In this document: piece after piece, positions 14,928-32,048 of the stretch | How the letters are laid out: each line of letters opens with the position of its first letter | Numbering within the stretch: position 1 is the first letter of the stretch | NCBI GenBank assembly: GCA_014799925.1 | Contig: JAAVHC010000047.1 | Location: 1 to 64,000 of the forward strand | Origin: Oscillibacter sp. | GTDB taxonomy: Bacteria > Bacillota > Clostridia > Oscillospirales > Oscillospiraceae | Reading direction: 5' to 3' | Length of the DNA: 64,000 nt | Translations under genes and position numbers: made by a program | Notes under the pieces: model-generated | The model's database searches: none | Seen by the model: the letters and a program-made list of their open reading frames with translations, nothing else | Told to the model about the DNA's origin: nothing

Positions 14928-15984
14928 GCTGAAGGCCGTTTCGGACCGTCTGGCGGCGATCGTCGCCCAGATGGAGGACCCCGCCACCTACGGCGACCCG
15001 GACCTGCTGCGCCGGCTGACCCGCGAGCAGAAGGAGCTGGAGCCGGTGGCGGAGGCTTACCGCGCCTACGGCCGGGCGGAGGCGGACCTGGCCTCCGCCC
15101 AGGAGCTGCTGAGCGACCCGGAGATGAAGGAGATGGCTCAGGAGGAGATCCAGCGGGCCAGGGCGGACATGGAGCGGCTGCGGGAGGAGCTGAGGCTCCT
15201 GCTGCTGCCCCGGGACCCCAACGACGGGAAGAACGTGGTCATGGAGATCCGCGGCGGCGTAGGCGGCGAGGAGGCCATGCTGTTTGCGGCGGACCTCTTC
15301 CGGATGTACGCCATGTACGTGGAGAGCCGGGGCTGGAAGCTGGAGGTGACCAGCCGCAGCGAGACGGAGCTGGGGGGCGTCAAGACCATTGAGTTCATTG
15401 TGGAGGGCGAGGGGGCCTGGTCCCGTCTCAAGTACGAGAGCGGGGCCCACCGGGTCCAGCGGGTGCCGGTGACGGAGTCGTCGGGCCGCATCCAGACCAG
15501 CGCCGCCACCGTGGCGGTGCTGCCGGAGGCGGAGGAGGTGGACTTCCACATTGACCCCGGCGATCTGAAAATCGACACCTTCCGCTCCTCCGGCGCGGGC
15601 GGACAGCACATCAACAAGACGGAGTCCGCCATCCGCATCACCCACCTGCCCACCGGCGTGGTGGTGGAGTGCCAGGACGAGCGGAGCCAGTACAAGAACA
15701 AGGACCGGGCCATGCAGATCCTGCGCACCCGGCTGTACGAGGCGGAACTGGAGAAGCAGAACGCCGCCATCGCCGCCCAGCGGAAGAGCCAGGTGGGCTC
15801 CGGGGACCGGTCCGAGCGCATCCGGACCTACAATTTCCCCCAGGGGCGGGTGACGGACCACCGGCTGACGGGGGACGGGAAGAATTTTGCCATTGATTCC
15901 GTCATCAACGGCGGGCTGGACCCCATCATCGACGCGCTGACCACCGCCGACCAGGCGGCGAAGCTGGCGGAGGCGGGGGAGTAA
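14917..15984 (+). CDS. prfA: peptide chain release factor 1
   Basis: RF1 reads UAA and UAG stop codons and triggers peptide release. The 355-residue length is standard. The catalytic GGQ is at 228-230 in GAGGQHINK, and the stop-codon-recognition tripeptide P-V-T is at 184-186. Two adjacent ATGs (14917, 14920) are possible starts; AAGGAGA lies upstream. The methyltransferase gene prmC that often follows prfA is absent here; a GNAT gene takes its place before tsaC. Confidence 0.97.
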   Translation: MMDKLKAVSDRLAAIVAQMEDPATYGDPDLLRRLTREQKELEPVAEAYRAYGRAEADLASAQELLSDPEMKEMAQEEIQRARADMERLREELRLLLLPRDPNDGKNVVMEIRGGVGGEEAMLFAADLFRMYAMYVESRGWKLEVTSRSETELGGVKTIEFIVEGEGAWSRLKYESGAHRVQRVPVTESSGRIQTSAATVAVLPEAEEVDFHIDPGDLKIDTFRSSGAGGQHINKTESAIRITHLPTGVVVECQDERSQYKNKDRAMQILRTRLYEAELEKQNAAIAAQRKSQVGSGDRSERIRTYNFPQGRVTDHRLTGDGKNFAIDSVINGGLDPIIDALTTADQAAKLAEAGE

Positions 15985-15988
15985 TCCT

Positions 15989-16669
15989 ATGAGCAGAAAT
16001 ACCAAAAATGCCCTGGCAATCGTCATTGGATTCATTGCGCTGTGGTACGCAGGCGCCATGTTCAACTTTTTCCCATTCATGGGGAATGATCTGGCGGTCA
16101 GCGCCGTGGGCTATACCGGACTTTTGCTCTGTATTGTTCTGGTGATCTGCGCCTGTTGGATCATTGACGAGGTGAACAGAGCGGGAAAAACCGCAAAGCC
16201 GGGCAGAGGCGGACTGACGGTCGCAAAGATGGAGCAGTCCGAAGCGGTGGAAATTGCGGACCGCTGGAAATATGACGGCGAGTACGCTTTCTACGACATG
16301 ACGGCGGACCCGGAGGATTATAAGGAGCTCGTGACCCCGGAGCTGCGGGGAGACCGGTACTTTTCCGTGCTGGATGGTGGCGAGCTGGTGGGCTTTTTCT
16401 GTGTGAAGCAGGAGGCCGGGGACGTCGAAATTGGCCTGGGTCTGCGGCCCGACCTGACCGGACAGGGACGGGGCGGCGCCTTTTTGAACGAAATTCTCCG
16501 GTTTGTGAAGGAAAACTACCAATTTGAGAAAATCTGTATGGATGTTGCGTCCTTCAACCAAAGGGCGATCAAGGTGTACGAGCGGGCGGGCTTTGTGAAA
16601 ACCGGGACCGCTCAGGTGCCCACCAACGGCGGGATATACGATTTTACTTTTATGGAATGGAAGAAATAG
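15989..16669 (+). CDS. GNAT acetyltransferase with an N-terminal membrane anchor
   Basis: A 226-residue protein. Residues 8-31 and 40-60 are two hydrophobic segments, followed by a short basic linker. Residues 75-226 are a GNAT acetyltransferase: the acetyl-CoA loop is LRPDLTGQGRGGAF and the end carries NQRAIKVYERAGF, typical of ribosomal-protein-type acetyltransferases. It lies between prfA and tsaC with spacings of 4 and 0 bp. A membrane-anchored GNAT is unusual. The substrate is unknown. Confidence 0.8.
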   Translation: MSRNTKNALAIVIGFIALWYAGAMFNFFPFMGNDLAVSAVGYTGLLLCIVLVICACWIIDEVNRAGKTAKPGRGGLTVAKMEQSEAVEIADRWKYDGEYAFYDMTADPEDYKELVTPELRGDRYFSVLDGGELVGFFCVKQEAGDVEIGLGLRPDLTGQGRGGAFLNEILRFVKENYQFEKICMDVASFNQRAIKVYERAGFVKTGTAQVPTNGGIYDFTFMEWKK

Positions 16670-17698
16670 ATGAAAACCACACTTCTGACAGAACGGGATA
16701 TCGAGACCGCCGCCGCCATCCTTCGGGATGGCGGTTTGTTGGGCATCCCCACGGAGACCGTCTACGGCCTGGGGGCCGACGGCCTGAACGCCGACGCGGT
16801 CCGCCGCATTTTTGAGGCCAAGGGCCGTCCCCAGGACAACCCGCTGATCCTCCATATCCCGGAGGCGTCCTGGCTGGAGCGGTACTGCCGGAACATTCCG
16901 GCGGCGGCGTATACGCTGGCGGAGAAATTCTGGCCGGGGCCGCTGACCATGGTCCTCCGGCGGCGGGCGAACGTGCCCAACGCCGTCACCTGCGGGCTGA
17001 ACACCGTGGGGATGCGGTGCCCGGACCATCCGGTGACGCTGGCGATCATCCGGGCGGCGGGCGTGCCGGTGGCGGCTCCCAGCGGCAACCGCTCCGGGCG
17101 GCCCAGCCCCACCTGCGCGTCCCATATGCTGGAGGACATGGACGGGCGGATCGACGCCATTGTGGACGGCGGAAGCTGCGGCGTGGGGGTGGAATCCACC
17201 ATCATTGACCTGACGGCCCCCGTTCCCCGGCTGCTTCGTCCCGGCGGACTGCCGCTGGAGGCGCTGCGGGAGGTGCTGGGGGAGGTTGAGGTGGACAGGG
17301 CGGTGCTGGCGCCGCTGAGCGCCGGAGAGAAGCCGAAAGCGCCGGGGATGAAGTACCGCCACTACGCCCCCAGGGCTCCCGTCACCGTGGTTACCGGCGA
17401 GAGCCGCCGTACCGCGCGGTATATTCGGCGGCGGCTGGGAGAACATACGGGGGTCATCTGCTTTGACGAGTATACATCGGAATTCCCCGGCTGTGTGGTG
17501 GAGTCCATCGGCTCTGTGGAGGACAGGGAGGAGCAGGCCCGGCGGGTGTTCGACGCTCTGCGGGCCTTTGACGAAACCAACGTGGACGCCATCTATGCCC
17601 AGTGTCCCGGGGACGCGGGGCTGGGGCTGGCGGTGGCCAACCGGCTGAAAAAGGCGGCGGGCTTCCAGATCGTGGACGCGGGGGAGGCGGAGGCATGA
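16670..17698 (+). CDS. L-threonylcarbamoyladenylate synthase (Sua5 type)
   Basis: Makes threonylcarbamoyl-AMP for the t6A37 modification of tRNAs reading ANN codons. The 342 residues comprise a YrdC domain (GIPTETVYGLGADG, then SGNRSGRPSPT) and a Sua5 C-terminal domain (about 210-342), with the linker motif PGMKYRHYAPRAPV. This marks it as the long Sua5/YwlC form and not the short TsaC. It starts immediately after the GNAT stop and overlaps coaE by ATGA. Confidence 0.95.
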   Translation: MKTTLLTERDIETAAAILRDGGLLGIPTETVYGLGADGLNADAVRRIFEAKGRPQDNPLILHIPEASWLERYCRNIPAAAYTLAEKFWPGPLTMVLRRRANVPNAVTCGLNTVGMRCPDHPVTLAIIRAAGVPVAAPSGNRSGRPSPTCASHMLEDMDGRIDAIVDGGSCGVGVESTIIDLTAPVPRLLRPGGLPLEALREVLGEVEVDRAVLAPLSAGEKPKAPGMKYRHYAPRAPVTVVTGESRRTARYIRRRLGEHTGVICFDEYTSEFPGCVVESIGSVEDREEQARRVFDALRAFDETNVDAIYAQCPGDAGLGLAVANRLKKAAGFQIVDAGEAEA

Positions 17699-18357
17699 TT
17701 GTCATCGGCATCACCGGACCCACCGGCGCGGGGAAGACCACCGCCCTGGAGGTCCTGGCGGAAATGGACTTTGAGATCGTGGACTGCGACGCGCTGTACT
17801 ATCAGCTGCTGCGGACGGACGGGACGCTGCGGCGGGGACTGCGGGACGCCTTCGGCGAGGTGTTCCTGCCGGACGGAAGCCTGGACCGAAGGGCGGTGGC
17901 GGCGCGGGTATTCAGCGATGAGCGGGAGCTGGAGAAGCTCAATGCCATTGTTTTTCCCGCCGTGTCCGCGGCAGTAAGACAAAAAATTTGTAAATGTTCA
18001 CAAAAAGGGCTTGCTATTGATGCCATCAATCTGCTAGAATCCGGTATGGGACGGCTGTGCCGCGCCACGGTGGCCGTGACGGCGGCGCCCGCCGTCCGGC
18101 TGAAACGCATCATGGCCAGAGACGGCCTCACTGAGGAGCAGGCCAGGTCCAGGATCGAGGCGCAGAAGCCGGCGGACTGGTACCGGGACAACTGCGCCTG
18201 CCTGCTGGAGAACCAGGAGGAGGACAGGGAGGCTTTTGCGGCGCAGGTGCGCGCATTCTTCCAAAACCTGTTGAAAATGATTGATAAAGGAGAGGATTGC
18301 AGTGGAAGCGAAGGAATGGAAGGAGACACTCCTGATGGAGAAAAAGAACGGCTATGA
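17695..18357 (+). CDS. coaE: dephospho-CoA kinase
   Basis: CoaE phosphorylates dephospho-CoA in the last step of coenzyme A synthesis. The P-loop is GITGPTGAGKTT (residues 5-16), and DCDALYYQLL follows as the substrate region. At 220 residues it is slightly longer than usual, because the last 18 or so residues overlap the next gene in another frame. ATG 17695 overlaps the Sua5 stop codon. Confidence 0.92.
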   Translation: MIVIGITGPTGAGKTTALEVLAEMDFEIVDCDALYYQLLRTDGTLRRGLRDAFGEVFLPDGSLDRRAVAARVFSDERELEKLNAIVFPAVSAAVRQKICKCSQKGLAIDAINLLESGMGRLCRATVAVTAAPAVRLKRIMARDGLTEEQARSRIEAQKPADWYRDNCACLLENQEEDREAFAAQVRAFFQNLLKMIDKGEDCSGSEGMEGDTPDGEKERL

Positions 18358-19687
18358 CCGGATGCCCGCCGGTGAGCGGGAAGCGATGGAGACGTACTGT
18401 CAGGGCTACAAGGCGTTTATGAACGCCGCCAGGACCGAGCGGGAGTGCGTTCGGGAGGGCATCCGACTGGCCGAGGAGAAGGGCTTCCGGGCCTATGAGC
18501 GGGGCATGAAGCTGAAGGCCGGGGACAGGGTGTACCGGAACAACCGGGACAAGATGCTGCTGCTGGCGGTGATCGGACAGAAATCCCTGGCGGAGGGCGT
18601 GCAGATCGCCGCCGCCCATATCGACAGCCCCCGGCTGGATCTGAAGCCGAGCCCCCTCTATGAGGACAGCGAGCTGGCGTACCTCAAGACCCACTACTAC
18701 GGCGGCATCCGGAAATACCAGTGGGTGACCGTCCCGCTGGAGATCCACGGCGTCGTGGCGCTGAAGGACGGGAAGAGCGTCGATGTGGTCATCGGCGAGG
18801 GCGACGAGCCCAAGCTGGTCGTCAACGACCTGCTGCCCCACCTGGCGGGAGAACAGCGCAAGAAGACGCTGGACGAGGGCATCGCCGGGGAGCAGCTGAA
18901 CATTCTGGCAGGCAGCGAGCCCATGGAGGGCGAGGAGAAGGACCGGGTGAAGCTGGCCGTCATGAAGCGGCTGTATGAGAAGTACGGCTTCACCGAGGCG
19001 GACTTTATTTCCGCCGAGCTGGAGGCGGTGCCGGCGGCCAGGGCCATGGACATCGGTCTGGACGCCAGCATGGTCGGCGCTTACGGCCAGGATGACCGGG
19101 TGTGCGGCTACGCCGCGCTGAAGGCGCTGCTGGATCTCGGCGAAATTCCCGGCAGGACGGCCGTGTGCGTGCTGGCGGACAAGGAGGAGATCGGCTCCGT
19201 GGGCGTATCCGGGATGAACACGAAGGCCTTCGATACCTTCATGGAGGACCTGTGCGATAGTCAGGACGTGCCTGTCCGGGCCTGCCTGGAGAAGAGCTTC
19301 TGCCTGTCCGCCGATGTGACGGCTGCCTATGACCCCAACTTCGGCGATGCGTATGAGAAGCGGAATGCCTCCTTTTTGAATTACGGCGTCGGCCTGTGCA
19401 AGTACACCGGCAGCCGGGGCAAGAGCGGCGCGTCCGACGCCTCCGCCGAGCTGGTGGCCTACGTCCGCCGGATCTTTGACGACAGTGGCGTGATCTGGCA
19501 GATGGCGGAACTGGGCAGGGTGGACGCCGGAGGCGGCGGCACCGTGGCGGGCTTTATGGCCAACCGCAATATCGACACGCTGGACGCCGGCGTGCCGGTG
19601 CTGGCTATGCACGCCCCCTTTGAGGTGACGGCGAAGCTGGACTGCTACATGGCCTATAAGGGCATGGCGGCGGTGTATCGGAACTGA
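18302..19687 (+). CDS. M18-family aminopeptidase
   Basis: A 461-residue zinc metallopeptidase of family M18, which removes N-terminal residues, often acidic ones. Metal-site motifs are AAHIDSPRLDLKP (His), VVNDLLPHLAG (bridging Asp), LADKEEIGSVG (catalytic Glu pair) and AMHAPFEV near the C-terminus. GTG 18302 is chosen because AAAGGAGAGG precedes it at 18287-18296; upstream in-frame starts would lie inside coaE without a site. It is followed by a terminator. Confidence 0.93.
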   Translation: MEAKEWKETLLMEKKNGYDRMPAGEREAMETYCQGYKAFMNAARTERECVREGIRLAEEKGFRAYERGMKLKAGDRVYRNNRDKMLLLAVIGQKSLAEGVQIAAAHIDSPRLDLKPSPLYEDSELAYLKTHYYGGIRKYQWVTVPLEIHGVVALKDGKSVDVVIGEGDEPKLVVNDLLPHLAGEQRKKTLDEGIAGEQLNILAGSEPMEGEEKDRVKLAVMKRLYEKYGFTEADFISAELEAVPAARAMDIGLDASMVGAYGQDDRVCGYAALKALLDLGEIPGRTAVCVLADKEEIGSVGVSGMNTKAFDTFMEDLCDSQDVPVRACLEKSFCLSADVTAAYDPNFGDAYEKRNASFLNYGVGLCKYTGSRGKSGASDASAELVAYVRRIFDDSGVIWQMAELGRVDAGGGGTVAGFMANRNIDTLDAGVPVLAMHAPFEVTAKLDCYMAYKGMAAVYRN

Positions 19688-19696
19688 TAAAGTGCA

Positions 19697-19732
19697 AAAC
19701 CCGCTTCTTCCGGCTTTGGAAGGAGCGGGTTT
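19697..19732 (+). terminator. terminator after the M18 aminopeptidase
   Basis: A stem AAACCCGCT/AGCGGGTTT with an imperfect inner arm is followed by a T-rich tail. It separates the upstream operon from the OLE promoter. Confidence 0.75.
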
Positions 19733-19783
19733 CTGGTTTGTCATGAATACAGTGCAAATATATAGAAAAACTTGTATAGTCTC

Positions 19784-19812
19784 TTGAATATTCAAACCGG
19801 ATATGGTATACT
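19784..19812 (+). promoter_or_regulatory. promoter of the OLE RNA
   Basis: TTGAAT and TATACT are 17 bp apart with an extended -10 (TGG before the hexamer). Transcription would start near 19819, with no coding frame following. Confidence 0.8.
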
Positions 19813-19818
19813 ATGCCT

Positions 19819-20500
19819 GCTGAACGACGGCGCAGTATCCTAGTCAGATCTGCCGCTTCCGAAGAAGGGCCTAAAAATCCTTTAAAGGGCATAGCTGTGA
19901 AACCCCTGGTGCCTGCTGCAAACGCCCAGTTTGGGGTGGGTGCTGGGCGGAAAGCGCGGACTCCCCGCGCTTGCGGCCGTAGGGCGTTCCCCAATGGCAT
20001 GGGGAAGCCGACCCTGCGGTCGTGGAGACCTGTTTTTGTGCATGGGCGTACTCCCTTTGCGGTACCTCGACCCATGTACGACTCAGGGTAGAAACCTGTA
20101 TTGCGGTGCTACCCGGCCCTGAGCCGTGAACGCTGTGTGCAGATGTAGCCTGCCTTGCGTGGGCATGGCGGATCGGAGAACGACCCAGTTTTTCCCCGGC
20201 CAGGGAGAGGCTGCTATTGCTCCGTGAAACCCTGGCTGCAAAAGAGGCTAAGAAGCGGTTTGACTGTGGTGGAAAACACCTAGGCTGTCGTCACTGGGCA
20301 GATGAGGGATTGCAGTGCGGACTAAGTGGCAGTCGGGCAGCGCGGTGGGCAACGCCGCGCCGGGGCGCCGAAAGGGAAACCGCCCGATCGGCAACGAGGG
20401 GTGCGCCCCGGGGAAATCCAGCCCGTACCTAAGCCGTAAGATTTACTTCATTTGCTGCCGGCGTTTGGCGCTTTTGCGAGGGCTTCGCCCTCGCCTCATT
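19819..20500 (+). ncRNA. ole: OLE RNA (ornate large extremophilic RNA)
   Basis: The region from 19819 to about 20500 has its own promoter, many short stems (for example around 19925-20010 and 20340-20420) and no convincing protein frame. It ends in a hairpin GCGAGGGC/GCCCTCGC at 20476-20494. OLE RNAs are about 600 nt, occur in anaerobic and extremophilic Firmicutes, and are encoded beside genes for the membrane partner OapA and isoprenoid synthesis, often near dxs, tlyA, argR and recN. Here an OapA-like gene precedes dxs and the rest follow. The class call rests on size, context and structure, not on an alignment. Known OLE RNA acts at the membrane in stress and metal homeostasis. RNase P, tmRNA and SRP RNA were excluded. 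Confidence 0.78.
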
Positions 20501-20619
20501 TGTATATTGGTACTATTCCTTGATTAGAAGCGCAATATCGCTGCCGTGCGGAAACGCGGGAATTGCAGGGCGTTAAAGAGCGATAGCAAAGTATGAGGCG
20601 GATTGGAGGACAGGAACGG

Positions 20620-22953
20620 ATGAAAACCGGAGGAAAACAGGCTTTGACCCTGCTGCTGGCGGCGGCCCTGCTGCTGGGCCTCGCGGCCTGCGGAAAAGAG
20701 GCGGAAGAGGAGAAGGAGCCGGACCGCTACGGCGGCGTCCGCTACGTCCCGGAGTTTCACACGCTGGACACGGATGTAGAGGAGTTCCAGAGCGGCTGCG
20801 TCATGGGAGACTATGTGTATCTGGCCGGGTCCGCGGTCACAAACGAGGACTACAACGACCGGGAGTCCCGGCTGCTGCGTATCCCGCTGGAGGGCGGCGA
20901 AGTCGAGCCTCTGCCCGGCTGCGAGCCGCCCAGCGGGGACAGGAACGTCATGAGCTCCGCCGAGTGCCTCGCCATCGCCGCCGGGGAGGAGGAAACCCTG
21001 TGGATGCTGGAGACCGTGAGGCGCTGGTACTATGCGTTTCCGGAAGATTTCGACCCGTATGATATGTCGTCCGGGACCCGCGGACAATATTATATCAGCA
21101 GTGAGGGCAGCTATGTCCTGCGCCGGCTGGACGGGGACGGAAGCGAGCTTTTCCGGCAGGAGTGGCCGATCAAGGAGCTGGAGAGTCAGCTTGGCCTTGA
21201 CTTTGTCAGTGAAATATTCATCGGCGCGGGAGGAGACGTCACCTTCTGTGACCGTTCAATGTCCTGTCAGATGGTGACCATGGATAAAACCGGCGCGCTG
21301 CTGGGCCGGGTGAACCCGAAGGATACCGGCCTGGAGTGGCAGGGCGAGGTGCGCCTGGGCGACGGGCGGCTGGCCGTGTGGGGGTTGTGTCAGGAAAACG
21401 GGGAGTACCGCGCGGGCCTGCAGGCGCTCTCGCTGAAAGGCGATACCTGGGAAGATAGCTGGACGCTGCCCGCCTGGTCCACTGTTTACAGCGGCGATGC
21501 AAATACGCTCTTTTACTATAACGCGGGCAGCGATCTGCTGGCCTGGAAGGCCCCCGCGTCTGCGGAGGAGGAAGAGACGGCGGAGAATACGCCGCTTCTG
21601 AGCTGGGTCAATACGGGTCTGGACGGCGGCGGGGAGCGCGTATTGACAGAATTCCTGCCTGACGGCCGGCTGGTGATCGTACAGGGCGGCGGCATATGGA
21701 GCGAGGGCGAACCGGCGGAGCTGGTGGTGCTGACGCCCACCGACGATCCGCCGGAGAAAACCGTCATAACGCTTGGCACGCCGGAGCTGTTCAGCAGCAT
21801 GGAGAAAGCCGTCCGGGACTTCAACCGGACGAATCCGGACTATCAGATCGAGGTCCGGGAGTATATGGACTACAGCGAAGGATATGACCGGGAGGCGGCG
21901 ATGACACGTCTGGCGACAGAAGTCGGCGCGGGAAAAATCCCGGATATTCTGGACACATACGGAATGCCTCTGGCCGGCTGGGCGTCCTCCGGCATACTGG
22001 AGGACCTGTGGCCCTGGATCGACCTGGACCGGGACATCGACCGGGAGGATCTGATGCTGCGGGTCCTGGAAGCGGATTCCATCGACGGCAGGCTCTATGA
22101 AATCTCCGACGGTTTTTCTTTCCATACCGTAGTGGGCGCGGAGGACGTGGTAGGCGGCCGGATCGCCTGGACGGCGGAGGACATGTGGGCGGCTCTGGAG
22201 AATATGCCGGAGGGGTGTGCCGCGATGCCCTATGGAAAGGAGCAGCTGCTGCGTGAGATGCTGATGACGTTCTGGGACCGTCTTGTGGACAGGAAGAAGG
22301 GAACGTGCGATTTTGACGGAGAGGAATTCCGGCAGGTGCTGGAGTTTTGCGGCCGGTTTCCGGAGAAGGGCCTGACCTACAGCGAACAGGGGGAAATGCT
22401 CCGTGACCGTGAGCTGATGCTGCAATGCCTCTCTCCGGACAGCTTCTGGGCGCTCCAGGAGATCCGGTCAGATTTCCGCGAAAGCATCTCCCTTGTTGGC
22501 CTCCCCAACCCCTGGGGCGAGACGGGAACCAGCTTCAGCCTCAGCGGCGGTCTGGCCATGTCCAGCGGCGGAAAGAACAAGGAGGGGGCGTGGGCTTTCC
22601 TGCGGACGATGCTCCTGCCCCATAAACAGCTTCGGTTTGAGCGCCGCTTCCCCATCAATAAGGAATCCTTTGAGGAGTCGGCCGCCAGGGATGGGAATTT
22701 GTCCGGCGGCCGCCGCTACGGCTACTCGGACAGCGCCGGGAACTTCCATGCCTACCGCCAGGTGTCGCAGAAGGAATACGACCAGGTCATGGCGCTGTAC
22801 GAGGCGGTGGACAGCGTGTACCGCTGGGACGACAGTCTGGGGGAGATCATCATAGAGATCGCCGGGGCTTATTTTGCCGGGGACAAGACGCTGGATGAAA
22901 CGGCGGCGCTGATCCAGAACCGGGCCAATCTGTATATCAATGAACAGAAATGA
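20620..22953 (+). CDS. extracellular solute-binding lipoprotein with a long N-terminal domain
   Basis: A 777-residue lipoprotein. The signal peptide ends in LLLGLAAC, with lipidation at the Cys. Residues 30-375 hold repeated short strands (PLEGGEVEPLPG-like, with tyrosine and aspartate motifs) suggesting a beta-propeller. Residues 380-777 resemble a family 1 ABC solute-binding protein (VITLGTPELFSSMEKAV, IPDILDTYGMPLAGW, GLAMSSGGKNKEGAWAFL). ATG 20620 has GGAGGA 9 bp upstream. No permease is adjacent. It lies between OLE RNA and the OapA-like gene, where the two would normally be neighbours. The ligand is unknown. Confidence 0.75.
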   Translation: MKTGGKQALTLLLAAALLLGLAACGKEAEEEKEPDRYGGVRYVPEFHTLDTDVEEFQSGCVMGDYVYLAGSAVTNEDYNDRESRLLRIPLEGGEVEPLPGCEPPSGDRNVMSSAECLAIAAGEEETLWMLETVRRWYYAFPEDFDPYDMSSGTRGQYYISSEGSYVLRRLDGDGSELFRQEWPIKELESQLGLDFVSEIFIGAGGDVTFCDRSMSCQMVTMDKTGALLGRVNPKDTGLEWQGEVRLGDGRLAVWGLCQENGEYRAGLQALSLKGDTWEDSWTLPAWSTVYSGDANTLFYYNAGSDLLAWKAPASAEEEETAENTPLLSWVNTGLDGGGERVLTEFLPDGRLVIVQGGGIWSEGEPAELVVLTPTDDPPEKTVITLGTPELFSSMEKAVRDFNRTNPDYQIEVREYMDYSEGYDREAAMTRLATEVGAGKIPDILDTYGMPLAGWASSGILEDLWPWIDLDRDIDREDLMLRVLEADSIDGRLYEISDGFSFHTVVGAEDVVGGRIAWTAEDMWAALENMPEGCAAMPYGKEQLLREMLMTFWDRLVDRKKGTCDFDGEEFRQVLEFCGRFPEKGLTYSEQGEMLRDRELMLQCLSPDSFWALQEIRSDFRESISLVGLPNPWGETGTSFSLSGGLAMSSGGKNKEGAWAFLRTMLLPHKQLRFERRFPINKESFEESAARDGNLSGGRRYGYSDSAGNFHAYRQVSQKEYDQVMALYEAVDSVYRWDDSLGEIIIEIAGAYFAGDKTLDETAALIQNRANLYINEQK

Positions 22954-22976
22954 CGGGAAAGTGAGGAGAGGATTCC

Positions 22977-23561
22977 TTGGACGCGGGGGATAATAAGGAT
23001 AATCGGAGGAAACCGAAAAAAAAGGGGAAGCCGGAGCGCTCCCCGGGCCGCTGGGCGGTGGAGGTATTCTTCATCGCGGTGGCGCTGTCCGCCGTGCTGA
23101 GCCTGGCTTCGGACCGGGCGCTGAACGGGGCGGGGCTGATCGCGGCCTTCGCGGTGCTGCTGGCGTTTGTTCTGCTGGGGATTTTCTTTGACGTCATCGG
23201 CGTGGCGGTGACGGCGGCGGACGAAAAGCCCTTTCATTCCATGGCGGCCCGCAAGACCCCGGGGGCGCGGGAGGCCATCTCCCTGATCCGCAGGGCCGAC
23301 AAGGTATCCAGCTTCTGCAACGACGTGGTGGGGGACATCTGCGGCATCATCGCCGGTTCCACCGTGGCGGTGATCGTGGTGCGCGCGCAGACCGCCTTCG
23401 GCTCGTCCGCCATGGTCACGTCCCTGCTGACGACGGCCCTGGCCTCCGGCCTGACCATCGGCGGCAAGGCTCTGGGCAAGAGCTTCGCCATTGCCAGGAG
23501 CACCCAGGTGCTCCAGCTGGTAGGGCGGTTCTTACATCTGTTTTCCCGAAAGAAGAGGTGA
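22977..23561 (+). CDS. oapA: OapA-like OLE-associated membrane protein
   Basis: A 194-residue protein with a basic N-terminus (RRKPKKKGK), four predicted membrane segments (about 26-45, 52-77, 118-137 and 143-160) and a conserved-looking central segment with DKVSSFCNDVVGDICG. OapA binds OLE RNA and tethers it to the membrane; it is described as a small membrane protein with similarity to DUF21/CNNM domains. Size, topology and position 7 bp before dxs fit. The start is TTG 22977, with GAGGAGAG 6 bp upstream. It starts 23 bp after the lipoprotein stop, so both are likely in one transcript. Confidence 0.75.
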   Translation: MDAGDNKDNRRKPKKKGKPERSPGRWAVEVFFIAVALSAVLSLASDRALNGAGLIAAFAVLLAFVLLGIFFDVIGVAVTAADEKPFHSMAARKTPGAREAISLIRRADKVSSFCNDVVGDICGIIAGSTVAVIVVRAQTAFGSSAMVTSLLTTALASGLTIGGKALGKSFAIARSTQVLQLVGRFLHLFSRKKR

Positions 23562-23568
23562 CCTTTTC

Positions 23569-25413
23569 TTGATTTTGGAGAATATTTCCTCCCCGGCGGA
23601 CATCAAACGCCTGGATGGGCCGGAGCTGGCCAGATTGTGCGGCGAGCTGCGGGAGTTCCTGGTAAACTCCGTTTCTCAAACGGGGGGGCATCTGGCCTCC
23701 AACCTGGGGGCGGTAGAGCTGACCGTGGCCCTCCACCGGGTCTATGACACGGAAACGGACCGGCTGGTTTTTGACGTGGGCCATCAGTGCTACGTCCACA
23801 AGGCCCTCACCGGGCGGCGGGAACTGTTCGGCACCCTGCGGCAGCTGGGGGGCATCTCCGGCTTCCCCAAGCCGGAGGAGAGCGGCCATGACGCCTTTGT
23901 GGCGGGTCACGCCTCCAACTCCGTCTCCGTGGCCCTGGGCATGGCCCGGGCCCGGACCCTGATGGGGGAGGGCTACAGCGTGGCGGCGCTGATCGGCGAC
24001 GGGGCGCTGACCGGCGGGCTGGCCTACGAGGGCCTCAACGACGCGGGCGCGTCGGGGGAGCCGCTGGTGGTGATCCTCAACGACAACGGCATGTCCATCG
24101 ACCCCAACGTGGGCGGCATCGCCGCCCATCTCAGCCGTCTGCGCCTGCGTCCCGGCTACTACCGGTTCAAGAAGGGCTACCGGGCGGTGCTCAGCCATCT
24201 TCCCGGCGGGCGGAAGTTATACAGATTCAATCACAGCGTCAAGACCGGCATCAAGAAGGCCATCTATCCCTGCTCCATGTTTGAGGATATGGGCTTTACC
24301 TACCTGGGCCCGGTAAATGGACACAATGTGGAGCAGCTCTGCACCACCCTGGCCTGGGCCAGGGAGATGGGCTGTCCGGTGCTGCTCCATGTGCGCACGG
24401 TGAAGGGCAAGGGCTACGCCCCCGCTGAGTCCCGGCCGGAGCTGAGCCACGGGGTATCCCCCTTTGATCCGGCCGTGGGGCCGGGGCAGGAGCGGAAGGT
24501 GGACTTTTCTTACATCTTCGGCCACGAGCTGGTGGAGCTGGCGGGGAAGGATAAGCGGATCTGCGCCGTCACCGCCGCCATGGCGGAGGGAACGGGCCTG
24601 CAGGAGTTCGCCTCCGCCTGGCCCAAACGGTTTTTTGACGTGGGCATCGCCGAGGGCCACGCCGTGGCCATGTCGGCGGGACTGGCGAAGCAGGGAATGG
24701 TCCCGGTGTTCGCGGTGTATTCCAGCTTTTTGCAGCGGGGCTTCGATATGCTGCTCCATGACGTGGCCCTCCAGCGGCTCCATGTAGTGCTGGCGGTGGA
24801 CCGCGCGGGGCTGGTGGGGGCCGACGGCCCCACCCACCACGGCTGTCAGGACGTGGGATATCTGACCCAGATCCCCGGCATGACGGTGCTGTGCCCGGCG
24901 TGCTTTGGGGAGCTGAAGGCCATGCTGCGCCATGCCGTCGGCATGGACGGCCCGGTGGCCGTCCGGTATCCCCGCGGCGGCGAGGGGAGGCAGTACCCCG
25001 GCTGGACGGGGGAGAGCGCGTCCGTCCTCCGGCAGGGGACGGATGCAACCCTGGCCGCCTATGGGACGCTGACGGATGAGATCCTGACGGCGGCGGAGCT
25101 GCTGGCGCAAAAAGGCGTCAGCGCGGAGGTGGTGAAGCTCCACCGCATCGCGCCGCTGGACGGGTCGCTGGTGCTGGAATCCGTCCGGCGGACCGGGCGG
25201 CTGCTGGTGCTGGAGGACTGCAACGAGAACGGCTGCGTGGGCCAGCAGCTGGCGGCGGCGCTGGTTCAGGCGGGGATCGCGCCCAGGATGCTGATCCTGC
25301 GGAATCTGAAGAGCGCCTTCGCCCCTCAGGGGACGGTGGCCCAGCTGCGGAAAAAGCTGGGCCTGGACGCCGGAAGCGTGGCGGCGGCGGTTCTGGAGGA
25401 ATTGAAAAGATGA
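23569..25413 (+). CDS. dxs: 1-deoxy-D-xylulose-5-phosphate synthase
   Basis: DXS joins pyruvate and glyceraldehyde 3-phosphate in the first step of the MEP isoprenoid pathway, using thiamine diphosphate. The 614-residue length is standard. The ThDP/Mg motif GDGALTGG is near residues 144-151; the catalytic Glu region DVGIAEGHAVAMSAG and the motif DRAGLVGADGPTHHG are present. The start is TTG 23569, with AAGAGGTG upstream. It overlaps the next gene by ATGA. IspA is not in the window. Confidence 0.97.
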   Translation: MILENISSPADIKRLDGPELARLCGELREFLVNSVSQTGGHLASNLGAVELTVALHRVYDTETDRLVFDVGHQCYVHKALTGRRELFGTLRQLGGISGFPKPEESGHDAFVAGHASNSVSVALGMARARTLMGEGYSVAALIGDGALTGGLAYEGLNDAGASGEPLVVILNDNGMSIDPNVGGIAAHLSRLRLRPGYYRFKKGYRAVLSHLPGGRKLYRFNHSVKTGIKKAIYPCSMFEDMGFTYLGPVNGHNVEQLCTTLAWAREMGCPVLLHVRTVKGKGYAPAESRPELSHGVSPFDPAVGPGQERKVDFSYIFGHELVELAGKDKRICAVTAAMAEGTGLQEFASAWPKRFFDVGIAEGHAVAMSAGLAKQGMVPVFAVYSSFLQRGFDMLLHDVALQRLHVVLAVDRAGLVGADGPTHHGCQDVGYLTQIPGMTVLCPACFGELKAMLRHAVGMDGPVAVRYPRGGEGRQYPGWTGESASVLRQGTDATLAAYGTLTDEILTAAELLAQKGVSAEVVKLHRIAPLDGSLVLESVRRTGRLLVLEDCNENGCVGQQLAAALVQAGIAPRMLILRNLKSAFAPQGTVAQLRKKLGLDAGSVAAAVLEELKR

Positions 25414-25958
25414 ATCAGAAGGACATGCGCCGCAGCGACTGGCAGCGTATCCTCCGGCGGGAGTATGTCAGCCGGGACTGCCGGATGCACGGGCGCAGAG
25501 GAAAGGAAAGCCTGCTGGTCATCCGGGAGGTGACCGGGCCGCTGGTTGTCCACGATGCGGGAGAGGACGTGCTGATTGCTGAAAAGGACTACGCCTGGGT
25601 GCAGATCGCGCTGGAGGGGCTGCCCTTCTGGCTGACGGCCATGTACGACGCGCAGGGGCGGCTTATCCAGATTTATTTCGATATTACCGGCGGAAACCGG
25701 TTTGATGACCCGGAGAACCCGACGTTTGTGGATATGTATCTGGACATCGTGGTGAACAGCCGGGGAGAGTTATACATCATGGACCGGGATGAGCTGGACG
25801 AAGCCCTGACGGAAGGCGTTATCACGCGGGAAGAGCGGGACGCGGCAAACGCGGCCTGCGCGCGTTTGTACGCCTATCTGGAGGAGAACCGGGAGGCCGT
25901 GGCTGAGTTGTGCGGCCGGGTATACCGGGAGCTGTGGGAGCGGCTGGCTTCCCGGTGA
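25410..25958 (+). CDS. DUF402 domain protein
   Basis: A 182-residue DUF402 protein. The domain core includes YDAQGRLIQIYFDITGGNR and FVDMYLDIVVNSRGELYIMD, with conserved acidic residues that bind metal in relatives, some of which are nucleoside diphosphatases or RNA-related enzymes. The role is not known. It overlaps dxs by ATGA and precedes the GNAT gene. Confidence 0.8.
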   Translation: MNQKDMRRSDWQRILRREYVSRDCRMHGRRGKESLLVIREVTGPLVVHDAGEDVLIAEKDYAWVQIALEGLPFWLTAMYDAQGRLIQIYFDITGGNRFDDPENPTFVDMYLDIVVNSRGELYIMDRDELDEALTEGVITREERDAANAACARLYAYLEENREAVAELCGRVYRELWERLASR

Positions 25959-25977
25959 GAGGAGGGAGAGCGAAAAC

Positions 25978-26508
25978 ATGATAGAAGTTCGGGAGATCGG
26001 CGCGGCCCGTAAGGCCGATATCAACCTTCCAAACGAGCCTTTTGCGCTGTTCGGAAGGATGGTGCCCTCCTATATTGAGGAACAGTGGGGGTACCGGACG
26101 ATTTTTTTTGATGAAAAAGATGTGTCGGAAATGTGTTTTCCAGATGAAAACTATGATTATGAGGCCATGAAGGAGAACCACGTGTTCCTGGGAGCCTATG
26201 ACGGCGATACCTGCGTGGGGCTGGCGATTCTCCGGGATAAATGGCTCAAGTATATGTATCTCTATGACCTGAAGGTGTCCGGGGCCTGCCGGGGGCAGGG
26301 CGTGGGACACGCGCTGATAGAAAAAGCGAAAGAGGTCGCTAGGGCCAGGGGCTACATCGGCCTGTATACCCAGGGTCAGGATAACAACCTGCGAGCCTGT
26401 GAGTTCTACATCAGGACAGGCTTCCATATCGGCGGGCTGGACACCAACATATATAAGGGCACCAGCCAGGAAGGGAAAGCGGATATCGTGTTTTACATGG
26501 ATATCTAA
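25978..26508 (+). CDS. GNAT acetyltransferase
   Basis: A 176-residue GNAT protein. The acetyl-CoA loop is DLKVSGACRGQGVGHALI; NNLRACEFYIRTGF is the usual C-terminal strand-helix. A GAGAG site precedes the ATG. It belongs to the dxs run, 20 bp downstream of the DUF402 gene. The substrate is unknown. Confidence 0.85.
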   Translation: MIEVREIGAARKADINLPNEPFALFGRMVPSYIEEQWGYRTIFFDEKDVSEMCFPDENYDYEAMKENHVFLGAYDGDTCVGLAILRDKWLKYMYLYDLKVSGACRGQGVGHALIEKAKEVARARGYIGLYTQGQDNNLRACEFYIRTGFHIGGLDTNIYKGTSQEGKADIVFYMDI

Positions 26509-26525
26509 GAAAACGGAGAGAGAAA

Positions 26526-27290
26526 ATGCTGTTACATGAATTTGACCCCAGCCCGATAGCGGTCATCAACCCGCCCGACATTTATAAGCCTGTTGAGGGC
26601 TGTCCCGGTGTGGCGGTATCCTGCTTCGAGCGGGGGACCTTTGGCAGGATGGTACAGCGGCTGGGAGCGGAGGAGATTGCACTGACCAGGTGCGCGAATA
26701 TGGAGATTCCTGTCTACCGGGCGGAATATAGGGGAACGCCGATTGCTCTGTACGAGGCGTATGTAGGCGCGGCGGGCTGTGTGGGGATGCTGGAGGATCT
26801 GTTTGCCGCCGGGGTGGAGAAGCTGGTGCTGTTCGGGACCTGCGGGGTGCTGGACCGGTCGATCAGGGACTGCGGCATCATTATCCCCACTTCCGCGCTG
26901 CGGGACGAGGGAACCAGTTTCCACTATGCGCCGCCGTCGGACGAGATTGCGGTCAACCTGAAATACCGGGAAGAGTTTATTGAGATATTGGACCGCCACA
27001 AATGTGGTTACACCATGGGAAAGGTCTGGACCACGGATGCTATGTACCGTGAGACGGCAGAAAAAATGGTCCGGCGGAAATCCCAGGGGTGTATTTGCGT
27101 AGACATGGAGTGCTCGGCGGTGGCCGCGCTGGCGCAGTTCCGTGGGAAAGCAGTTTTTCAGTTCTTCCACGCGGCGGACAACCTGGACGGCGAGGCCTGG
27201 GATGCCAGGAGCCTCGGCGGCGGCGCCAACATCACCGGGAAGGATAAGGCCGCGCTGCTGGCTCTGGAGCTGGCGGCCCGGATTGGATGA
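26526..27290 (+). CDS. nucleoside phosphorylase (PNP/UDP family)
   Basis: A 254-residue phosphorylase that splits a nucleoside with phosphate. The family motifs LVLFGTCGVLDRSI, the loop VDMECSAVAALAQF with the catalytic-site Glu, and the opening GTFGRMVQRLG are visible. Purine versus uridine specificity cannot be told. It lies 17 bp after the GNAT gene and 3 bp before tlyA. Confidence 0.88.
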   Translation: MLLHEFDPSPIAVINPPDIYKPVEGCPGVAVSCFERGTFGRMVQRLGAEEIALTRCANMEIPVYRAEYRGTPIALYEAYVGAAGCVGMLEDLFAAGVEKLVLFGTCGVLDRSIRDCGIIIPTSALRDEGTSFHYAPPSDEIAVNLKYREEFIEILDRHKCGYTMGKVWTTDAMYRETAEKMVRRKSQGCICVDMECSAVAALAQFRGKAVFQFFHAADNLDGEAWDARSLGGGANITGKDKAALLALELAARIG

Positions 27291-27293
27291 ATT

Positions 27294-28100
27294 ATGGCAA
27301 AAAAAATAAGACTGGACGTTTTTCTGACGGAAAAAGGCTTGCAGGAAAGCCGTCAGAAGGCCCAGGCTACCATTATGAGCGGGCTGGTGTACGTCAACGG
27401 CCAGCGGGTGGACAAGCCGGGGACCTCTGTTGACCGGTCGGCGGAAATTGAGATTCGGGGGAACACCCTGAAATATGTCAGCCGGGGCGGACTGAAACTG
27501 GAAAAGGCCATGGCCGTCTGGCCCATTGAATTGACGGACAAAATCTGCATGGACGTGGGCGCGTCCACCGGGGGATTCACGGACTGCATGCTGCAAAACG
27601 GGGCGGCAAAGGTCTACGCGGTGGACGTGGGCTATGGGCAGCTTGCCTGGAGTCTGCGGAGCGATGAACGGGTGGTGTGCCTGGAGCGCACCAACGCCCG
27701 GTATCTGGACCATACGGTCATCCCGGAGGAGCCGGATTTTTCCAGCGTGGATGTGAGCTTTATTTCCCTGAAATTGATCCTCCCCGCCATTGCCAATGTC
27801 CTGAAGGGCGGCGGCGAGGCGGTCTGCCTCGTCAAGCCCCAGTTCGAGGCCGGGAAGGAGAAGGTGGGGAAGAAGGGCGTGGTCCGGGACCCTGCCGTCC
27901 ACCGGGAGGTGCTGGAGCATTTTCTGGAGCATGCCAGAGAGAGCGGGTTTACCGTGCTGGATCTGAGCTATTCCCCCGTCCGGGGACCGGAAGGGAATAT
28001 TGAGTACCTGGGCTGGCTGCGGAAGGCGGCGTGGGAAGAAAAGTCCTTCGATCTGGCCGCGCTGGTGGAGGCGTCCCATAGCGAGCTGGAACAAAAATAA
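27294..28100 (+). CDS. tlyA: TlyA-family rRNA methyltransferase
   Basis: A 268-residue protein. Residues 1-60 form an S4 RNA-binding domain (RLDVFLTEKGLQESRQKA). The rest is an FtsJ-type methyltransferase with the SAM loop CMDVGASTGGFTDCML and the K-D-K-type core GKKGVVRDPAVH. Relatives 2'-O-methylate rRNA; the gene is a regular member of the dxs-argR-recN series. Older annotations call it hemolysin, which is misleading. Confidence 0.92.
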   Translation: MAKKIRLDVFLTEKGLQESRQKAQATIMSGLVYVNGQRVDKPGTSVDRSAEIEIRGNTLKYVSRGGLKLEKAMAVWPIELTDKICMDVGASTGGFTDCMLQNGAAKVYAVDVGYGQLAWSLRSDERVVCLERTNARYLDHTVIPEEPDFSSVDVSFISLKLILPAIANVLKGGGEAVCLVKPQFEAGKEKVGKKGVVRDPAVHREVLEHFLEHARESGFTVLDLSYSPVRGPEGNIEYLGWLRKAAWEEKSFDLAALVEASHSELEQK

Positions 28101-28296: not shown

Positions 28297-29172
28297 ATGA
28301 AGCGCGTGATCTTATGCCCGAACCCCTACCGGGACAAGGGCCTTGCCGCGGCGAAGGCGGCGGAGAGCATCCTGCGGAGCGCGGGGCTGAGCACGGTGTA
28401 CTGCCTGCCCTTCAAGCCGGAGGGCGGGGAGGCGCAGTTCGACGTGCCCTGCCGCCCGCTCCAGCAGGAGCTGCGGCGCAGCGACCTGGTGGTGGCCTTC
28501 GGCGGAGACGGAACCATCCTGCATCTGGCCAGGGCGGCCTCCATGAGGGGCGTCCCGGTGCTGGGAGTGAACCTGGGAAGCCTTGGGTTTATGTCCGACC
28601 TGGAGGCGGGCGAGCTGGAGCTGCTGAAAAATCTGGCGGGCGGACACTACCGAAAGGAAAAGCGGATGATGCTGGACGTGTCCGTCCTGCGGGATGGGCG
28701 GACGGTATATACCAGCGGCGCCCTCAATGACGCGGTGGTGACCAAGGGGGCCATGGCCCGTGTGATACGCCTCCAGGTGACCACGGGAGAGGAGCAGATG
28801 GGCATCTTCGCCGGGGACGGCGTGGTGGTGGCCACGCCCACGGGGTCCACGGGCTACTCGCTGTCGGCGGGAGGGCCCATCGTGGAGCCCACGGCCCAGA
28901 ACTTCGTCATCAGCCCCATCTGCGCGCACGCGGTGTTCAGCAAATCCTTCGTGCTGTCGGCGGCGGGAACGGTGACGGTGGCTCCGGCGGAGCTGAACCG
29001 GAAGCAGGTCTATCTGTCGGTGGACGGCGGGAAGGCGTTCGCCCTGCGCCAGGGGGACAAAGTGCGCATCTGCCGCTCGCGGTATGAGACGGAACTGCTG
29101 CGGCTGACCGATAAAAGCATCTATGAGATTCTCAGGACAAAAATGACAGGAGGCATCGGCCATGAAAAATGA
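28297..29172 (+). CDS. nadK: NAD kinase
   Basis: Phosphorylates NAD to NADP. The 291-residue protein has the ATP-NAD kinase signature AFGGDGTILHLA, then NLGSLGFM and the second signature TPTGSTGYSLSAGG. GGGAGG lies before the ATG at 28297. It overlaps argR by 11 bp. Confidence 0.95.
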   Translation: MKRVILCPNPYRDKGLAAAKAAESILRSAGLSTVYCLPFKPEGGEAQFDVPCRPLQQELRRSDLVVAFGGDGTILHLARAASMRGVPVLGVNLGSLGFMSDLEAGELELLKNLAGGHYRKEKRMMLDVSVLRDGRTVYTSGALNDAVVTKGAMARVIRLQVTTGEEQMGIFAGDGVVVATPTGSTGYSLSAGGPIVEPTAQNFVISPICAHAVFSKSFVLSAAGTVTVAPAELNRKQVYLSVDGGKAFALRQGDKVRICRSRYETELLRLTDKSIYEILRTKMTGGIGHEK

Positions 29173-29614
29173 TCGTCAGAGGAGAATTTTGGAAATTGTG
29201 GAGCGGGAGCCTATCGACACCCAGGAGAAGCTTCAGCAGCGTTTGAAGGAGCAGGGCGTGAACTGTACCCAGGCGACCATTTCCCGGGACATCAAGCAGC
29301 TGCATCTGATCAAGGAGCCAATGGGGCAGGGGCAGTACCGCTATATGGTGTCCAGCCAGCGCAACCGGCTGAATGTGGCGGACAAGCTGCGGGGGATTTT
29401 CCGGGAGAGCATTGTCAGCGTGGATTTCGCCCAGAACATCGTGGTCATCAAGACCATGGCGGGACTTGCCAACGCGGCGGCCGCCGCGCTGGACAGCATG
29501 AGCGTCCCCGACATGGTGGGGACCCTGGCGGGAGACGATACGGCGTTCCTTGTGATGAGGGATGTGGAAGCGGCGAAAGGCTTCTGCGAGGAAATTCACG
29601 AGATGCTGAAGTAA
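29162..29614 (+). CDS. argR: arginine repressor ArgR/AhrC
   Basis: A 150-residue protein with an N-terminal winged helix-turn-helix (CTQATISRDIKQLHL, near residues 37-52) and a C-terminal hexamer/arginine-binding domain containing AGDDTAFLVM. It represses arginine synthesis and activates catabolism. It overlaps nadK, with GGAGG just upstream of its ATG. The next gene recN is separated by a repeat. Confidence 0.93.
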   Translation: MKNDRQRRILEIVEREPIDTQEKLQQRLKEQGVNCTQATISRDIKQLHLIKEPMGQGQYRYMVSSQRNRLNVADKLRGIFRESIVSVDFAQNIVVIKTMAGLANAAAAALDSMSVPDMVGTLAGDDTAFLVMRDVEAAKGFCEEIHEMLK

Positions 29615-30371: not shown

Positions 30372-32048
30372 ATGCTGCAACTGCTGCATATCGAAAACAT
30401 CGCCGTGATTGAGGAAGCGGACATCACCTTTGACAGCGGCTTCAACGCCCTGACCGGAGAGACCGGCGCCGGCAAGAGCATTGTCATCGACGCCATGGGG
30501 GCCGTGCTGGGCCAGCGGACCAGCAGGGACCTGATCCGCACCGGCGCGGCCAAGGCGTTTGTCAGCGCGGTGTTCACCGGCGTACCGTCCCTGGCGGCGC
30601 TGGAGGAATGCGGCGCCGAACCGGAGGAGGGAGAGCTGCTGCTCCAGCGGGAGGTCTACGCCGACGGCAAAAACGTCTGCCGGGTGGGCGGACGTCCCGT
30701 CACCGTGGCGCAGCTGCGGAAGATCGGGAACTCCCTGCTGAACATCCATGGGCAGCATGATGGACAGCAGCTGCTGGACGAGGAGCAGCACGGGGCCTAC
30801 CTGGACAGCTTTGGGCGGGTGGACCGGGAGCTGGCGGCGTACACCGCCTGCTACGAGGCCATGGAGGCCACCCGCCGGAAGCTGAAAAGCCTCCAGATGG
30901 ATGAGGCGGAAAAGGAACGCCGGGTGGACAGCCTGAATTTCCAGATCAATGAGCTGGAGCGGGCGGAGCTGAAGCCCGGAGAGGAGGAAGCCCTGCTCCA
31001 GCGGCGGAACCTGCTGCGCAACAGCGAGAAATTCATGTCCGCCATCCAGGGCGCTGTGTGGAACCTGTCGGGCGGCGACGACGGCGGCGGCGCGGTGCCG
31101 TCGCTGCGGGAGGCCGCGGGAGCGCTCTCCGGCGCGAAGCATCTGGACGAGCAGTTTTCTCAGCTCCATGAGAGACTGGAAAGCCTGTACTCCGAGGCTT
31201 ATGACGTGGCGGAGACCCTTCGGGATCTGGAGGATGCCTTTGATTTCAGCCCCCAGGAGCTGGACGAGCTGGAGGGCCGGGCGGATCAGCTCTACCGGCT
31301 GAAAAAGAAGTACGGCCCCACCGTGGAGGACATGCTGGCATATCTGGAGCAGCGGAAGGAAGAGCTGGAGCAGATCACCTTCGCCGCCGACACCGCCGCG
31401 AGACTGGAAAAGCAGCAGGAAAAGGAGCGCAGGCAGGTCATGAAGGCCGCCGGATCGCTGTCCGAGGCCCGGAAGACGGCGGCAAAGGCGCTGGAGGAAC
31501 GGATCCAGGAGGAGCTGAGGCAGCTGGATATGCCCAAGGTCCGGTTTGCCATCTGCTTCGGGGAGAAGGAGCCGGACGCCGGAGGCATCGACGTGGTGCG
31601 CTTTCTCATGTCCGCCAATGTGGGCGAGGAGCTGCGGCCCATCAACAAGGTGGCCTCCGGCGGCGAGCTGGCGCGGATCATGCTGGCGCTGAAAAACGTG
31701 CTGGCGGAGAACGAGCTCATCGGCACGCTGGTTTTTGACGAGGTGGACACCGGCGTCAGCGGACGGGCGGCCCAGAAGGTGGCGGCCAAGCTTGCCCAGG
31801 TCAGCCGCCGGAAGCAGGTCCTGTGCGTCACCCATCTGCCCCAGCTGGCGGCCATGGCCGACACCCATTTCTCCGTGGAGAAGGGCGAGAGCAGGGGGCG
31901 GACCTATACCAGGGTCCTGCGGCTGGACCGGGAGCAAAGAAAGCAGGAGCTGGCCCGTCTGACCGGCGGCGAGCACCTCACGCCCGCCATGCTGGCGGGC
32001 GCGGAGGAGCTGCTGGACGCGGCGGAAGCGTATAAGAAGGGCGTTTGA
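30372..32048 (+). CDS. recN: DNA repair ATPase RecN
   Basis: An SMC-like protein acting early at double-strand breaks. The 558-residue protein has the Walker A motif TGETGAGKS near residue 30, long coiled-coil arms, the signature NKVASGGELARIML, and the Walker B/D-loop DEVDTGVSG. The repeat copy D lies upstream. A palindrome of repeat family 2 follows the stop. Confidence 0.95.
   Translation: MLQLLHIENIAVIEEADITFDSGFNALTGETGAGKSIVIDAMGAVLGQRTSRDLIRTGAAKAFVSAVFTGVPSLAALEECGAEPEEGELLLQREVYADGKNVCRVGGRPVTVAQLRKIGNSLLNIHGQHDGQQLLDEEQHGAYLDSFGRVDRELAAYTACYEAMEATRRKLKSLQMDEAEKERRVDSLNFQINELERAELKPGEEEALLQRRNLLRNSEKFMSAIQGAVWNLSGGDDGGGAVPSLREAAGALSGAKHLDEQFSQLHERLESLYSEAYDVAETLRDLEDAFDFSPQELDELEGRADQLYRLKKKYGPTVEDMLAYLEQRKEELEQITFAADTAARLEKQQEKERRQVMKAAGSLSEARKTAAKALEERIQEELRQLDMPKVRFAICFGEKEPDAGGIDVVRFLMSANVGEELRPINKVASGGELARIMLALKNVLAENELIGTLVFDEVDTGVSGRAAQKVAAKLAQVSRRKQVLCVTHLPQLAAMADTHFSVEKGESRGRTYTRVLRLDREQRKQELARLTGGEHLTPAMLAGAEELLDAAEAYKKGV

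Follow-up and report, generated by a model that had tools for sequence, protein, structure and literature searches.

OLE is a large bacterial RNA with a known role in stress responses and, to our knowledge, ranks among the largest structured bacterial RNAs that lack a known biochemical function. In H. halodurans, OLE is anchored to the membrane by OapA and has roles under stress from ethanol, cold, Mg2+ and carbon. According to published surveys, 2,822 Bacillota genomes carry OLE, among them gut lineages, and OLE anticorrelates across the phylum with MpfA, a protein to which OapA is similar (PMC11332333). The published models differ on the k-turn used by the partner protein OapC. Biochemistry first mapped OapC binding to k-turn 1a, formed by J4a/5 with J5/6 plus the left side of P6 (PMC9723947), whereas the cryo-EM structure of C. 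acetobutylicum OLE has k-turn 1b instead, formed by J4a/5 with J6/7 (PMC12286853). A third view is switching, in which the two forms are treated as alternatives that may be influenced by bS21, itself bound by the P6 region in H. halodurans OLE (PMC12054373).

A complete OLE RNA in an Oscillibacter genome

To examine the locus, we scanned positions 15000-28000 of the window (the whole 64,000-nucleotide stretch of Oscillibacter sp. DNA analysed here) against Rfam. The scan returned a single match, to RF01071 (OLE), at 19811-20477 on the forward strand with 404.7 bits (E 4.1e-116), against a gathering score of 50. The match covers model positions 1-616 end to end, with P7, P8, P9 and the P13 region all present in the cmscan alignment, and the scan gave no other RNA family at 19811-20477; this segment is a complete OLE RNA. 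Its score also exceeds 390 bits, the published divide between full-length OLE and variant 1, though 390 belongs to the authors' own model and not to RF01071 (PMC11332333). The features of the transcription unit are as follows.

19784-19812, + strand, putative promoter of ole: TTGAAT, 17-nt spacer, TATACT, with TG before the -10 (extended -10), from a consensus scan
19811-20477, + strand, OLE RNA (Rfam limits), covariance-model match to RF01071
20198-20201, + strand, GGCC palindrome in loop L9.3, equivalent of the kissing loop of the C. acetobutylicum OLE dimer in the cryo-EM structure (PMC12286853)
20476-20494, + strand, terminator-like hairpin after OLE, with a weak T run

Transcription probably begins near 19819, just past the -10; the consensus scan found one promoter-like site in the 1-kb region, against 0.5 expected by chance. 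Open reading frames inside 19784-20500 are short (the longest, 92 aa, at 19813-20091), and since the OLE match runs end to end, the whole segment is accounted for. An initial annotation had proposed an OLE candidate of about 680 bp here, with a clear promoter and no coding frame; its size and coordinates were right, the promoter-like site starts exactly at 19784, and the contrary outcome that it named, no OLE hit or a different large RNA class, did not occur in the Rfam scan. The locus could alternatively be read as a decaying OLE copy or as another large RNA class, and the score is indeed below that of many relatives, which reach up to 583 bits. However, the full coverage of RF01071 with no other family match already refutes another RNA class, and decay is opposed by this coverage, the presence of a promoter, an intact OapA, and compensatory changes that keep the stems in the genus. 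We regard this reading as extremely unlikely.

The genes downstream of the RNA, all on the same strand, are listed below.

20593-22953, + strand, solute-binding-protein-like gene, 786 aa (SBP_bac_1, 26.4 bits, barely above the cut-off)
22977-23561, + strand, oapA, 194 aa (weak CNNM match, DxxxD, fold matches)
23569-25413, + strand, dxs (TIGR00204, 660 bits)
27294-28100, + strand, tlyA (TIGR00478)
28297-29172, + strand, nadK-like, ORF named from its sequence (GGDGT motif)
29162-29614, + strand, argR-like, ORF named from its sequence
30372-32048, + strand, recN-like, ORF named from its sequence

Thus the oapA-dxs-tlyA-argR-recN neighbourhood described in the initial annotation is present in all its members, with nadK in addition, but ole and oapA are not directly adjacent, being separated by the solute-binding-protein-like gene. 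The common ole-oapA gap in related loci is ~37 nt. In four other genomes of the genus, relatives of the intervening gene with 35-40% identity lie at the corresponding site; a gene of this type was observed between ole and oapA in G006, G008 and G017, and G011 has more than one copy there. Between dxs and tlyA, the same strand holds a DUF402 gene, a GNAT gene and a nucleoside-phosphorylase-like gene. The GNAT acetyltransferase (25978-26508) resembles the streptothricin acetyltransferase Sat4, with 102 bits against a model cut-off of 380.

The initial annotation took an OLE copy in a gut Clostridia member to be of interest, OLE being known mainly from extremophiles and anaerobes, but its distribution makes such a host unsurprising. 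Among 99 relatives, OLE is present in 51, OapA in 50 and both in 49, the three mismatches being draft genomes of 67-84% completeness, and samples of the class and of the phylum hold OLE in 158 of 391 and 289 of 398 genomes, respectively, in line with the published gut lineages (PMC11332333). An OLE match accompanies 79 of 80 named OapA loci, which come mostly from Oscillibacter and other Oscillospiraceae, many from guts; the 80th sequence begins 174 nt before oapA. Many Clostridia, Oscillibacter and other Oscillospiraceae among them, carry OLE as a rule, and its presence in a gut member is in itself ordinary. Assembly breaks fall inside ole in five draft genomes of the genus (L138-L142), and OLE may therefore be undercounted in drafts. 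Partial OLE matches in G006, G009, G013, G020 and G024 were considered as degenerate variants and dropped, as they lie at contig ends.

OLE partners and Mg2+ transporters

The DxxxD motif of OapA (D116, D120) is invariant among 16 homologues, and we infer that the two residues correspond to D100 and D104 of the H. halodurans protein. The predicted OapA model (mean pLDDT 76) has CNNM/CorC membrane domains as its five best PDB matches, at probability 1.00 but modest E values of 0.0096-0.22, which agrees with the published OapA-MpfA similarity (PMC11332333). One genome of the order (G065) was observed to carry two OapA homologues, on contigs C41 and C94.

Additionally, the genome encodes an OapB of 96 aa between map and infA, which matches the OapB of PDB 7k9b (E 1.2e-5). 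A KOW match at G000:C12 was also considered as OapB and dropped because of its wrong context. OapC/YbxF (80 aa) adjoins rpsL-rpsG-fusA and is matched by YbxF structures at about 3e-10, and bS21 is encoded in the same genome. A genome search found no CorC_HlyC domain, the mark of MpfA-type transporters. This combination, OapA, OapB, OapC and bS21 without MpfA-type transporters, is the published OLE profile.

The same relation holds among the 99 relatives, where CorC_HlyC occurs in 9 of 51 OLE genomes versus 39 of 48 others, or, in complete genomes only, in 4 of 32 with OLE versus 30 of 32 without, all of these counts ignoring kinship. The anticorrelation within one order repeats the phylum-level report (PMC11332333). 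One genome of the same genus (G014, 98% complete; L143) lacks OLE and OapA and carries two adjacent CorC_HlyC (MpfA-type) genes; set against their absence from the window's genome, this is a within-genus swap that agrees with the published replacement idea.

A covarying hairpin between P5 and P6

Relative to Rfam OLE, the window RNA carries a 21-nt insertion between P5 and P6, which an alignment with OLE RNAs of its relatives shows to be shared. Most Oscillospiraceae OLE RNAs have this insertion.

19903-19950, + strand, stem P5 (Rfam alignment, fold)
19952-19972, + strand, added J5/6 hairpin of 8 pairs (19952-19959 with 19965-19972), loop 19960-19964

For 219 distinct OLE regions of the class, we parsed the segment that runs from J4a/5 to J6/7. 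The search pattern tolerated two mismatches in J6/7 and gave preference to TGAA in J4a/5, which builds in some of the conservation there. The segments fall into two length groups (21-25 or 36-58 nt), with the hairpin in 67 RNAs and none in 152. Most hairpin RNAs (64 of 67) are of Oscillospiraceae type, and the remaining three (L002, L004 and L026) belong to two further families of the order. Two Oscillospiraceae genera are without it (L001, whose RNA is the same as that of Papillibacter L094, and L003); among cultured relatives, Papillibacter lacks the hairpin and Oscillibacter valericigenes has it. On an OLE tree built without the hairpin columns, we count four changes in the trait, of which three or more fall on well-supported branches, and by kinship the 67 RNAs reduce to about three or four origins. 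None of the 59 parsed, better-scoring OLE RNAs from outside the class has the hairpin.

Pairing in the insertion was then compared among 44 distinct Oscillospiraceae hairpins. At the six basal pairs, 95.1% of the cells hold standard pairs, versus 77.6% when partners are shuffled among sequences, and none of 2000 shuffles was as high. Cells changed on both sides number 48, versus 12.8 in the shuffles, and are seen at all six basal pairs, while sliding one arm by 1-3 nt lowers the pairing to 24-47%. The lowest-energy fold of the window RNA places P5, the 8-bp hairpin and the extended P6 side by side (z -5.1). The J5/6 hairpin is a real, covarying stem, which varies in length and loop among RNAs. 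It is not mentioned in the searchable text of the OLE papers, whose figures and supplementary alignments lie beyond that search and may depict it.

The k-turn options and comparison with known systems

To compare the two k-turns, H. halodurans nucleotides were placed on the alignment by our own mapping, derived from the text of the papers and not from their figures, with U84-C85-bulge-GA assigned to AUC-GAU-GAAG of J4a/5, the k-turn 1a partner to AA-GG of J5/6, and the k-turn 1b partner to GA-GA of J6/7. The elements involved are as follows.

19884-19902, + strand, J4a/5, bulged k-turn strand (alignment with related OLE RNAs; mapping from the text of PMC9723947), including the C85 equivalent at 19895, the three-nt bulge at 19896-19898 and GAAA at 19899-19902
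19973-20023, + strand, stem P6, its base extended by C19974-G20022 and G19973-U20023; holds the equivalent of the bS21-bound region
20022-20028, + strand, J6/7 GUGGAGA, second strand of k-turn 1b (model from PMC12286853 and PMC12054373)

In the window RNA, GCGG replaces AAGG in J5/6 and the hairpin is inserted, and k-turn 1a with J4a/5 is not formable. J6/7 can form the k-turn 1b core, that is, the C-G beside the bulge and the tandem G-A, through C19895 and GGAG 20024-20027. Across the class, 148 of 152 hairpin-less RNAs could form a k-turn 1a core, and none of the 67 hairpin RNAs could; for the k-turn 1b core the counts are 149 of 152 and 67 of 67, respectively. Specifically, each of the 64 Oscillospiraceae RNAs has G/A-C at two J5/6 positions, and these pair with the first two positions of J6/7, one pair being C-G throughout and the other G-U in 60, G-C in 2 and A-U in 2; the same two pairs are found in 1 (C-G) and 101 of the 152 hairpin-less RNAs. 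P6 is therefore two pairs longer, and the k-turn 1a strand is consumed. A tree-based sign test of hairpin against A-A-G loss had only 3-4 independent contrasts, which puts significance out of reach.

Of the 64 Oscillospiraceae hairpin RNAs, 42 have lost the second pair of the k-turn 1b C helix, among them the window RNA (G against A). Position 84 is U in 145 of 152 hairpin-less RNAs versus 25 of 67 hairpin RNAs; that U84 was freed by the loss of k-turn 1a was considered and not relied on, as U84 also varies outside the class. There (L296-L360), 7 of 59 OLE RNAs combine C at position 84 with G at the final position of J6/7, and this compensatory change speaks for the second (-2) pair of k-turn 1b.

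K-turn 1a might still form via other nucleotides around or within the new hairpin, since the C and GA of J4a/5 are kept in all RNAs and the folded hairpin could stack on P5. However, neither A-A-G nor G-A-G stands beside P6 in any of the 67 hairpin RNAs, all 64 Oscillospiraceae RNAs carry a C at the former 1n position, which pairs with J6/7, and the predicted fold keeps the three helices side by side. We consider such a rescue of k-turn 1a very unlikely.

Taken together, the locus very probably encodes a functional, full-length OLE serving as a ribonucleoprotein scaffold with a rebuilt P5/P6 switch region, in which OapC, if bound, would use k-turn 1b and a/b switching would not take place. According to this model, the promoter of ole would drive transcription of an RNA of about 660 nt, OapA dimers would anchor the particle to the membrane, OapB, OapC and bS21 would bind its folded domains, and the particle would help the cell cope with stress, Mg2+ above all, the anchoring and stress roles being carried over from the H. 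halodurans work. In the Oscillospiraceae lineage, the 8-bp hairpin in J5/6 and the lengthening of P6 by two pairs have taken away the strand needed for k-turn 1a; OapC, if OLE-bound here, would use the J4a/5-J6/7 k-turn, and the a/b switching proposed for H. halodurans would not occur. The hairpin appears to remove one of the two competing shapes proposed for the protein-binding switch, and the sequence comparison suggests that it has a function, that P5/P6 may no longer toggle and that OapC may sit on k-turn 1b. By analogy with C. acetobutylicum OLE, where the outer helix ends meet in a five-way junction (PMC12286853), the extra hairpin would add an arm to this junction, near the proposed OapA and OapC sites.

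The hairpin could instead be a tolerated, functionless insertion, with the choice of k-turn irrelevant and OapC no longer in the OLE particle of this clade. Several complete genomes with the hairpin lack OapC (G032, 98%; G044, 100%; G019, 92%), and only about 45% of OLE genomes have it (PMC11332333); it is also present in OLE-less genomes, so that its presence is no proof of OLE binding. The variable length and loop of the hairpin and the frequent loss of the second C-helix pair likewise fit this alternative. Conversely, many double changes keep the hairpin paired, the hairpin persists across the whole family, all 67 hairpin RNAs retain the C85 equivalent and GGAG, and 20 of 25 genomes in the genus encode OapC. 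We judge a functionless insertion to be doubtful, though well above marginal.

Our preferred reading, a rebuilt P5/P6 region that retains k-turn 1b, has a broader form, which we advance tentatively, at a little under an even chance: Oscillospiraceae OLE may be a structural subtype with a locked P5/P6 switch, 1a excluded and 1b kept. If so, the J4a/5-J6/7 k-turn, not 1a, would be the universal OapC site, and 1a/1b switching would be dispensable for OLE function. A family in which evolution has removed one k-turn option, with cultured relatives keeping it, would offer a direct test, in effect a natural experiment on the OapC site.

Compared with full-length OLE (RF01071; H. halodurans, C. acetobutylicum), the window RNA has the same 616 model positions, the conserved joining sequences and the L9.3 GGCC, together with its own promoter, the oapA-dxs-tlyA-argR-recN neighbourhood and the partner genes. 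It differs by the added J5/6 hairpin, the loss of the J5/6 A-A-G, a P6 two pairs longer, a J4a/5 changed from AUCGAUGAAG to AGCUGUGAAA, and the solute-binding-protein gene between ole and oapA. OapA resembles the membrane domain of the MpfA/CorC (CNNM) Mg2+ transporters but is without CBS and CorC_HlyC domains, and such transporter genes are absent here and anticorrelate with OLE. OLE variant 1 (TANB77) and variant 2 (RF39) are, like the form described here, lineage-specific OLE forms of uncultured gut Bacillota; those variants are shorter in P7-P9 and linked to the loss of OapB and OapC (PMC11332333), whereas the window OLE is longer, is changed in J5/6, and belongs to a genome that has both OapB and OapC.
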